Of a DNA stretch of 64,000 nucleotides, positions 39,702 through 62,557 are shown in pieces. The position numbers were made by a program, and so were the translations under genes. How positions within the stretch are numbered: position 1 is the stretch's first letter; each line of letters starts with the position of its first letter. A model generated the notes under the pieces. That model had not been told where the DNA came from. It saw only the letters and a list, made by a program, of their open reading frames with translations, and did not search any database. This DNA is from Candidatus Poribacteria bacterium (GTDB taxonomy: Bacteria > Poribacteria > WGA-4E > WGA-3G): contig JAAXGN010000027.1 of NCBI GenBank assembly GCA_012267415.1, forward strand, positions 1-64,000. Reading direction: 5' to 3'.

Positions 39702-39718
39702 TTTGAGAATTGTTTCTG

Positions 39719-39783
39719 AGTAGGAGGGAACTCCGATTCCCGATTACGAGTGGTATTGGTCGCGATTCGGAGATCGCTCCTAC
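39719..39783. repeat. 'gtaggagggaactccgattcccg' inverted repeat
   Basis: The left arm 'gtaggagggaactccgattc' and the right arm 'gattcggagatcgctcctac' form an imperfect hairpin of about 60 bases. Copies or half-copies lie at 42876-42900, 47868-47902 and 62360-62424, all between genes. Confidence 0.85.
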
Positions 39784-41172: not shown

Positions 41173-42009
41173 ATGGCGAAATCAAAGGGACTTAAGAGAT
41201 TCTGGGGTGAGATGTTTTTTTACGAGTCGGAAGGATCAGGTGTTCCACTGCTATTTCTGCATGGTACAGGATGTGATTCAACGGATTGGGACCTTGTAAT
41301 ATCAGAATTACCGAGGGAACAACGGTACATTACACTTGATTTCCGTGGACATGGACGGAGTACCACGCCAATTGAACCTTTTACCATTGAATGTCTTGCG
41401 GATGATGTGCTAAACCTTATCTATGCTTTAGATGTGCAGGAAATAGTTCTGGTAGGTCACAGTCTTGGCGGGATGGTTGCGATGGAAGCGGCAAGACGGG
41501 ATGCGCGTGTCGCTGCCTTGGTTTTGCTTGAAGGATGGACACGGCTATCCGTCACACGAGCTGCATTTGATGCAGCTCGATTTTACGGTTCTTTACCCAA
41601 CGAGACGATCAAAGAGATACAACGGAAAGCAGGTATGACAAGGGAACGTTTTATAGAAAGAGTTTGGGGTAGTTTCTGGGGTTCTGTCAGGGATTTTGAT
41701 GGTTGGAGTTTTCTTGAAAATGCAAAAATACCTATCTATGAAGTTTACGGTGAAATGGGACGGCATGAATCAACAGAGGAATTGCTGCAGATTCCATCTA
41801 ATCCGAGTATACATATAAGATGGGTTCCTGGTTCTGGACATTACTTACCCCACGAGCGTCCTGTAGCGGTGGCAGAGATTTGTGGGAATTTAATAGCACA
41901 ATCAAGGATGAATGTGCTACAGAACCGGTCTACGTTTGGGATCTATGCATTTGGTATTTCAACCGGCAAATCCAGCCGGTCTCCCCATTCTTTCCAAGAT
42001 CCGATGTAA
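41173..42009 (+). CDS. alpha/beta hydrolase
   Basis: A 278-residue alpha/beta-hydrolase fold protein. The oxyanion region [14 protein letters not shown], nucleophile elbow [14 protein letters not shown] and catalytic histidine in [13 protein letters not shown] are present. The substrate is unknown. The natural end of the fold is near ICGNLIAQ. The last 35 codons run through a 'gcacaatcaaggatgaatgt' hairpin repeat (41898-41923) and then overlap, on the opposite strand, the 3' end of the rhodanese gene. The tail is therefore probably an extension caused by repeat insertion that removed the original stop. Confidence 0.82.
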
Positions 42010-42773
42010 TTGCTTACATTCGGATAACCTAATAAGCGTAACGCTAAGTAGGTTTGGGAAGAACGGTATCCTCCCTGTCAGTAACACATGATCTGCTTTT
42101 CGGGTGTGATGCCGACAGGTTCATACAATTCCCGGAGTTGATGTGCTGTTTTAAAGGCACCATTTTCGTCAAGATTGTTGAGCCACTCAATATGTATAGA
42201 ACCGGGGATCGCACCTGCGCGTTCTGCCCGAGCGACTCTCCCGTAATGCTCATCCTCAGTGCGCGTATCCAATCGAATGAAGTCATCCTGATTCAATTGT
42301 CCGTGAATTGAATCAGCACTTAGATGTAAATGTTTCTGTGGTTCTCCCGTGAATGGTGTAACTGCAAGTGGTATAACCCCTTCTGTGCTGACCGGTCCGT
42401 CTGCGGCTAACCATGCTTTGTAACCACCATCCAGTAGACGGGTTTTCGTGTGTCCGAGATACTCACAGAACCAGAGTCCTCGTGATGCGCGTGTTCCCGA
42501 TATATCCTCATACCAGATGATTGTCTTTGTAGGATCAATGCCTCGTTGTTGAAACAGATATGCTATCATCCACATAAAGGCGTCAAACATCTCTTGTGTT
42601 GTATTGATAAGGCTTAATCCGAATAGATCCAAATGTAATGCACCCGGAATATGTCCGTTCATATACTCATGTGTTGGACGCGTATCCACAATGCAATTAT
42701 TTTTGTCGTCAAGGTTGTTCATTAACTCGTCAACAGTGATAACGAGTTGGGGATTCTCAAAACCTTTGTCCAT
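41943..42773 (-). CDS. two-domain rhodanese sulfurtransferase, probable selenoprotein (UGA at catalytic Cys)
   Basis: A thiosulfate sulfurtransferase-like protein of 276 residues if UGA 42080-42078 is read. Residues 1-120 form the inactive domain ([20 protein letters not shown]) and 150-276 the active one. Before the UGA the frame reads [10 protein letters not shown]. After it comes [20 protein letters not shown], then [20 protein letters not shown] and TAG. Rhodaneses have the catalytic cysteine exactly there (Y-C-Q-G-G), so residue 232 is best read as selenocysteine. Hairpins follow the codon at 42056-42075 and 42028-42052. The start is ATG 42773 with AAGGAG upstream; a frame opening 150 bases earlier is not supported. 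If UGA is a stop, the protein loses its active loop. Confidence 0.82.
42028..42080 (-). promoter_or_regulatory. candidate bacterial SECIS region after the in-frame UGA
   Basis: Two hairpins lie directly downstream of the UGA. The first pairs GGGAGGA with TCTTCCC (42056-42075; seven pairs including one G-U) around a UACCGU loop. The second (42028-42052) pairs CCTA with TAGG and AGC with GCT around GTTAC, and its loop starts with G about 35 bases from the UGA. The second fits the usual bacterial spacing and loop rule better. Neither is proven. Confidence 0.5.
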
Positions 42774-42936
42774 ATTAAATAATCTCCTTTCCGGTAGTAT
42801 AGTAAACTTCTGAATTAATGTAACATTCTTCCCTGTAAGAGTGAACTTCGATGTCCGACTGAATGCTCTGATAGTCGGGAAGCGGAGTTCCCTCCTACAG
42901 GGTCTTTGTATCATTATTTTCAATGTTTACTATAAT

Positions 42937-62094: not shown

Positions 62095-62557
62095 ACTTTT
62101 TAGTTTATTGTGTGTGTTAAAGATAAAAGGTTGGAAGGTTGGAAGATTCGACCCAACCATAAGCGTCAATTTAAGGAGATAAACCCAAACTAATAGTGAT
62201 CTCAGCCCCGTAGGGACTAAAGACCAAACCAAGAATAAAACAATTTCCTTAAATTGACGACTAGGGTACGATTAGGAAATCGCACCTACCGGCCTGGGAA
62301 AATCGGTTTTACCCTATTAATTTATTATGGTAGATTATACAATTAATTCTACATTCCGAGTAGGAGGGAACTCCGATTCCCGACTATCAAAGGGTTTGGT
62401 CGCGATTCGGAGATCGCTCCTACAAGCAAGGTGTATAATCATTTTCCTGTTTCACCATAATCTTCATTTAGATTGTGCTTTTGAAACGCAAACTAAAAGT
62501 TTACGCTACAATTCTGTTTAGGTAATTATAGATTTCACTTTATATAAGGAGTATATG
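62095..62557. repeat. 460-base gap with four repeat families
   Basis: It contains a 'ccgtagggactaaag' variant (62200-62222), a 'gcacctaccggcctgggaa' piece (62282-62301), a complete 'gtaggagggaactccg ... cggagatcgctcctac' hairpin (62360-62424) and the 'aaactaaaagtttacgctac' hairpin with its downstream tail (62490-62530). No gene is supported. AAGGAG at 62547-62551 belongs to the next gene. Confidence 0.8.

Follow-up and report, generated by a model that had tools for sequence, protein, structure and literature searches.

In a 64,000-nucleotide (nt) stretch of Candidatus Poribacteria DNA (assembly GCA_012267415.1, contig JAAXGN010000027.1, positions 1 to 64,000; hereafter the window), the minus strand carries at 41943..42773 a gene for a two-domain rhodanese (sulfurtransferase), interrupted by an in-frame UGA codon at 42078..42080. 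The product is almost certainly a selenoprotein, with selenocysteine (Sec) at the catalytic position. Sec very probably is inserted by the genome's own SelA, SelB, SelC and SelD, directed by a split, long-range bacterial selenocysteine insertion sequence (SECIS) made of two structures, P1 and P2. It is likely, moreover, that bacteria have a second SECIS architecture of this kind, in which an in-frame hairpin about 100 nt from UGA is delivered by a covarying long-range helix, and that this architecture is conserved over Poribacteria, a Latescibacteria-labelled phylum and one Nitrospinota-labelled genome, but absent or decayed where the codon specifies cysteine (Cys).

The rule that a bacterial SECIS stands directly behind UGA bears on how insertion works, in that SelB has to reach a ribosome paused at the codon, and on the software used to find selenoproteins. 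A SECIS that acts from about 100 nt through RNA looping would separate distance in sequence from distance in space. Some of the selenoprotein genes that do not fit the standard model might be accounted for in this way, and there would be a new handle for programming Sec insertion.

Two helices downstream of UGA

P1 and P2 are conserved and covary in the genes with Sec, and are absent or decayed in the homologues with Cys. The counts below, with the T of UGA numbered 0, cover 81 Sec and nine Cys sequences; identical -90..+129 stretches were merged, and loci without the full stretch were left out, as was paralogue L002. For the ungapped alignment of the 81 distinct Sec genes, RNAalifold returns 15 pairs in two helices, and no other pair. 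P1 is a long-range helix that joins +14..+21 to +88..+95; past an invariant C-A mismatch it can continue through +23..+25/+84..+86. In the window, the extended 5' strand (CCGUUCUUCCCA, +14..+25) occupies 42055..42066 and the 3' strand (UGGAAAGAAUGG, +84..+95) occupies 41985..41996, both on the minus strand. The coding stretch between them, 58 nt long (41997..42054; 66 nt when counted from the core helix), contains no consensus pairs. P2, the putative SelB-binding apical stem-loop, is the hairpin +99..+105/+113..+119 (41961..41981, minus strand; GACCGGC-UGGAUUU-GCCGGUU in the window). Its apical loop (41968..41974) reads UGGAUYU in most Sec genes.

P2 has the features of a bacterial SECIS (bSECIS) except for its distance from UGA. 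As set out in a recent review (PMC13188914), these elements have a loop of 3-9 nt, a stem of 4-16 base pairs (bp), a G in the first two loop positions, and a minimum free energy of -7.5 kcal/mol or lower; for most, the loop lies 16-37 nt from UGA. P2 has a 7-nt loop and a 7-bp stem; its energy in the window is -11.5 kcal/mol (-12.0 kcal/mol for the 30-nt stretch that holds it); and local folding of all 81 Sec genes puts a G within the first two loop positions. The linear distance from UGA to the P2 loop is 103 nt, and P1 would supply the missing proximity: with the P1 domain (+14..+95) counted as looped out, the path is 11 + 3 + 7 = 21 nt.

We infer that P1 and P2 together are the SECIS, and that SelB binds P2. 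By this model, the P1 helix would loop out some 58-66 nt of coding sequence, so that only 14 unpaired nt and the P2 stem would separate the P2 loop from UGA. Recruited to that loop together with Sec-tRNA, SelB would then supply Sec to a ribosome stopped at UGA. P1 begins 11 nt after UGA, approximately where the mRNA enters the ribosome.

Shuffled and slid alignments served as controls for pairing. Across the Sec genes, 98.0% of the P1/P2 alignment cells are paired, compared with 95.6% in shuffled alignments (none of 500 as high) and 33-48% in slid ones. Cells changed on both sides number 38 (6.6 in shuffles), and the covariation score is 0.115 (0.067 in shuffles); none of the 500 shuffles reaches either value.

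Two P1 pairs carry linked synonymous changes, 75 and 69 nt apart, respectively. Pair 17-92 is C-G in 60 genes, U-A in 17, and U-G in 4; pair 20-89 is U-A in 73 and C-G in 8. All four columns are third codon positions (Arg/Glu and Ser/Lys), and therefore are not dictated by the protein. Variable third-position columns in -90..+126 give 60 pyrimidine-purine pairings; these two are the only ones in which C-A never forms, and they lie on one anti-diagonal, in register in P1. A ranking of 198 pairings over a longer stretch was restricted to 61 poribacterial genes, the other 20 Sec rows being dropped for alignment gaps far upstream. Pair 17-92 comes first; five other pairings also lack C-A, but all involve column 92 and have lower covariation. 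(Pair 20-89 varies too little in these genes to enter the ranking.) In P2, pair 101-117 is C-G in 71 genes and U-A in 10; in all 81, the synonymous choice between GAC and GAU for Asp goes together with that between Val and Ile six codons later. Pair 102-116 is C-G in 77, A-U in three, and A-A in one. Parsimony on a tree of upstream protein sequences (all 90 rows, made by a quick method; the drawn tree holds 42) counts ten joint changes at 17-92, four at 20-89, three at 101-117, and four at 102-116. Synonymous conservation in the 61 poribacterial genes is concentrated in two places: the best 15 of 175 eight-codon spans start at codons -3..+6 or +28..+34 after UGA.

A ribosome at UGA is expected to cover the bases before +14. 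With folding begun at +14, mean pair probability for P1 exceeds 0.5 in 81 of 81 Sec genes, one of nine Cys genes, and 10 of 81 synonymous-permuted controls (one permutation per Sec gene); the corresponding counts for P2 are 80, none, and 12. Folding from UGA itself yields P1 and P2 in none of the nine Cys genes, and RNAalifold on these homologues finds neither helix.

The tree requires at least four changes between Sec and Cys. Five of the Cys rows group in a single outer clade; L111 and L120, which lack both helices, fall within the poribacterial Sec clade; L132 stands beside large Sec clades; and L117 is sister to the Sec form L123. Because five Cys genes (L111, L117, L120, L124 and L127) reside in genomes that still have tRNA-Sec, where P2 exceeds 0.5 in none and P1 only in L117, the element follows the codon, not the genome. 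L117 (3685-3810), with P1 intact and P2 broken, looks like a recent switch from Sec to Cys, its signal decaying.

The P2 core, GGCTGGATYTGCC, has a single exact match in the genome, at the window site, and Rfam gave no relevant match on five loci. A covariance model (R1), run on the window and 26 of 155 loci, matched 14 Sec sites and 9 Cys homologues (73.9-130.2 bits), the latter because of sequence kinship. The remaining matches were to the opposite strand of the same sites, to the Cys paralogue (31% identity), and, with two low scores, to L111. Within this sample no second copy of P1/P2 was found.

Objections and competing signals

Several observations weigh against a split SECIS. The published model sets the apical loop 16-37 nt from UGA, far short of the position of P2. 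The minimum-energy fold of the window from UGA onward consists of local hairpins, not P1, and the window's own P1 appears only when folding begins at +14 (0.97). Among all Sec genes, folding from UGA lowers the counts above 0.5, to 75 of 81 for P1 and 76 of 81 for P2. One Sec gene, L122, has a shifted P2 with the loop AGUUA in place of the consensus, G still being at loop position 2. The pairs changed on both sides number four, versus 2.5 in shuffles (32 of 500 reach this), and further pair types are not raised (7 versus 7.5). On supported branches, sign tests on independent row pairs reach no more than 3-0, 3-0, and 2-0, too small for significance. The Cys sample comprises nine homologues only. 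In these, 71.6% of the P1/P2 cells are paired, but this is no more than in their own shuffles (70.7%), and therefore shows the contribution of amino acids alone. By a loose test, five of the nine have another hairpin with G in the first two loop positions, and L117 retains P1 (0.8), its P2 broken by a mismatch. Finally, the Sargasso Sea study of selenoproteins draws a predicted SECIS for its rhodanese (PMC1088965).

One alternative is a selenoprotein with an ordinary proximal SECIS just after UGA, of a form outside the simple hairpin model, P1 and P2 only enhancing insertion, for example by slowing the ribosome. Codons -1..+7 around UGA are as constrained as the P2 region, and some of these lie before P1; the literature recognizes atypical bacterial SECIS elements; and the window's fold from UGA does contain local hairpins. 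The preliminary description of this DNA had taken two such hairpins as the signal. They prove to be the local fold of one sequence: in the 81 Sec genes 77.1% of their cells are paired, compared with 76.7% in shuffles and 37-60% in slid alignments, and individual pairs are disrupted in 69 and 71 of the genes. The stretch that it proposed for folding, 42020-42080, is too short to hold the conserved structure.

The consensus fold likewise has no proximal hairpin. A proximal hairpin that fits the published model occurs in 16 of 81 Sec genes, three of nine Cys genes, and 166 of 405 codon-shuffled controls, and on these counts a proximal SECIS of the published type was rejected. The model filter, with its cut at -7.5 kcal/mol, also misses the hairpin of the selD gene in the same genome (-6.5 kcal/mol for the bare hairpin), and for this reason a looser scan was added. 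Among hairpins of -4 kcal/mol or lower with a G-start loop at 16-37 nt, none is common to more than four of the 81 Sec genes, whereas the P2 position is common to 79. In the window rhodanese, 8-60 nt from UGA, there is no hairpin with four unbroken pairs and a G-start loop; both scans demand an unbroken 4-bp stem, so bulged stems can be missed. A proximal SECIS with P1/P2 as enhancer is, on balance, improbable.

Less probable still, and by some way, is that P1 and P2 form a conserved mRNA element unrelated to Sec, involved in stability or 3'-end processing, or constrained by an overlapping antisense gene. P2 does lie close to the 3' end, and a convergent alpha/beta-hydrolase open reading frame (ORF) overlaps it in the window. 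Indeed, an antisense open stretch of at least 100 codons covers P2 in 49 of the 81 Sec genes; in the other 32, however, the antisense stretches are shorter, down to 34 codons. Moreover, the G-U pairs (16-93 in 81 of 81 genes, 17-92 in four, and 99-119 in 19) fit the sense strand only. The presence of the element tracks Sec versus Cys at the codon, not the genome: of the five Cys genes in genomes with tRNA-Sec, none forms P2 above 0.5, and only L117 forms P1.

Evidence for selenocysteine in a two-domain rhodanese

The frame of the gene runs from 42773 to 41943 on the minus strand, beginning MDKGFENP and ending EIPNA, with AAAGGAG close upstream of the ATG. Its single internal TGA is preceded by 231 residues and followed by 44 sense codons and a TAG stop, as first described, for a total of 276 residues with the UGA read through. 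Pfam PF00581 matches two rhodanese stretches (E 6.7e-37), so that both sides of the UGA belong to one protein; no NCBIfam model passed its cut-off. In phmmer alignments to solved structures, the TGA stands opposite the active-site-loop Cys of the Azotobacter (HCQTHHRS), Thermus (YCRIAERSS), and mycobacterial enzymes, which bears out the earlier placement of the UGA at the catalytic Cys. An AlphaFold2 model (from an alignment of 32 sequences; predicted local distance difference test score 95.1) has rhodaneses as its top Foldseek matches in the PDB. Residue 232, encoded by the UGA, sits in the second of the two domains between strand 227-231 and helix 236-247, where a rhodanese has its catalytic residue.

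Sulfur-transfer activity is putative. Sulfane sulfur would be passed on by way of an Se-S intermediate on the enzyme: rhodanese chemistry with selenolate replacing thiolate, the sulfane sulfur (or selenium) being carried as Se-S (or Se-Se).

The UGA is conserved among relatives. An orthologue of at least 54% identity is present in 69 of the 84 phylum genomes searched, with exactly one internal TGA in 66 and none in three. At 80 named loci, the codon at the catalytic position is TGA in 72 and TGC or TGT in eight, so the Cys expected opposite the UGA in homologues is indeed found; records titled as chromosomes (L062, L064, L065, L068, L086, L089, L092) are among those with TGA. Since one TGA is kept in 66 of 69 orthologues and TGA in 72 of 80 loci, chromosome records included, an assembly error is excluded. 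The UGA forms are conserved on both sides of the codon, down to about 52% whole-protein identity. Of 64 genomes in the phylum to which the Latescibacteria-labelled genome G092 belongs, 20 have a match, with a TGA in 19 and without it in one; most of these genomes were already among the named genomes tested for tRNA-Sec.

The Sec machinery is present as well. The window's genome (5.46 Mb, 170 contigs, 97.6% complete) contains selA (590 bits), selB (353 bits), selD (366 bits), and tRNA-Sec (77.7 bits), each scoring above its curated cut-off; tRNA-Sec follows the selB match by 15 nt. The selenoprotein reading offered in the preliminary description, which named these genes as the ones to look for, is strongly supported by their presence, by the conservation of the UGA, and by the Cys alternatives. 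Relatives were searched for tRNA-Sec and selA (the phylum) or for tRNA-Sec (non-poribacterial genomes). All 15 non-poribacterial Sec genomes tested have tRNA-Sec, as do five of eight Cys genomes; it is below cut-off for L126 and L128, and unmatched in L129. Of the 66 phylum genomes with UGA, 59 have a match to tRNA-Sec and 57 to selA. (Among sponge-symbiont bins, SelA and SelB are described in PMC5649159 as co-occurring in most bins of various phyla and missing in most reference relatives.)

Two points tell on the other side. The sel genes lie on contigs other than the window's, in an assembly rated 5.29% contaminated. In addition, tRNA-Sec and selA are both unmatched in four of the 66 UGA genomes (G029, G032, G059, and G060, which are 81, 73, 83, and 96% complete, respectively). 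These are taken as draft-genome gaps, although they remain a loose end; G060, rated 96% complete, has the UGA rhodanese, but neither tRNA-Sec nor selA was matched there at the thresholds applied.

It is exceedingly improbable, and can be set aside, that the UGA terminates translation, marks a pseudogene, results from a sequencing error, or is read through or reassigned to another residue: UGA is formally a stop and the part before it is 231 residues long, but a single internal UGA is common to nearly all orthologues, both of its flanks are conserved, the eight named loci without it have Cys codons, the machinery is complete, and, as the earlier argument against reassignment held, UGA ends other frames (11 of 39 non-overlapping window ORFs of at least 150 residues in a mechanical, uncurated list, one of the 11 being the rhodanese cut at its own UGA).

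No functional link is drawn from the surroundings. No gene neighbour is common to the few loci checked (the window, L062, L099, L103, L109, L115, L118, and L123): the window, L062, and L099 have a MATE gene upstream, and in the rest the upstream genes checked belong to other families. A Cys paralogue with 31% identity is encoded elsewhere in the same genome. Between the MATE gene and the rhodanese lies an inverted repeat, CCCTGTAGGAGGGAACTCCG...TTACAGGG (42831-42902). Similar repeats occur at 39716-39735 and 62356-62375 (four matches in the window with at most three mismatches; 0.00 expected), and this is probably a short interspersed repeat family.

Relation to known selenoproteins and SECIS elements

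Selenoproteins related to rhodanese have been catalogued before, and the novelty lies in the insertion signal. These sulfurtransferase selenoproteins number three sequences from the Sargasso Sea (COG2897) and eight from Global Ocean Sampling (cd01449), and the 2026 review (PMC13188914) lists them as rhodanese form 4 (UxxG), with the record MCY3690685.1. The window protein resembles the marine ones in its two-domain class, by COG and cd label, in its Sec, and in its UxxG motif (U-Q-G-G in the window). The families, compared by labels and not by sequences, are likely the same. Their SECIS elements are described differently: the Sargasso authors sought a bacterial-type SECIS immediately downstream of TGA, and reported stem-loops resembling bacterial SECIS in all new families (PMC1088965). 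No description of a distal or split bacterial SECIS appeared in the titles and abstract openings of the partial open-access literature searched. The rhodaneses of Azotobacter vinelandii (1e0c) and Thermus (1uar) share the fold and the active-site position, but have Cys where the window protein has Sec; in structure alignments they are 33 and 31% identical to it.

Two other selenoprotein genes of the same genome provide an internal comparison. The selD gene has the hairpin UUAGCUC-CGGGU-GAGCUAG 16 nt from its UGA, and a moeB gene near selA has CCUGGG-CGUGCU-CCCAGG at 20 nt. As in P2, a hairpin with G at loop position 2 (CGGGU, CGUGCU) follows a UGA; unlike P2, both hairpins are proximal. The selD gene (L154, contig C157:17766-18692, minus strand) is itself a selenoprotein gene, with one UGA (VKCAG-U-ASKL). 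The moeB gene (L153:8205, contig C104, about 1.6 kb from selA), also with an in-frame TGA (MVPS-U-SEAGVLGVLPG), appears by eye to encode a rhodanese-like domain fused to a MoeB-type adenylyltransferase. A MoeB selenoprotein family is already listed in PMC13188914.

Action from a distance has precedents outside the bacteria. Archaeal and eukaryotic SECIS elements, according to PMC13188914 (archaea) and PMC1088965 (eukaryotes), also work from afar. These, however, mostly reside in the 3' untranslated region, outside the frame, and have other motifs, whereas P2 lies in coding sequence and has a loop of the bacterial type.

A further comparison is with bSECIS elements of the Escherichia coli fdhF type. 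P2 shares with these the small-loop stem-loop, its location in the coding region, G in the first two loop positions, and a genome with genes for SelB and tRNA-Sec. The difference is one of distance: the fdhF-type loop lies 16-37 nt from UGA and the P2 loop at 103 nt, a separation that shrinks to 21 nt only on the premise that the P1 domain loops out.
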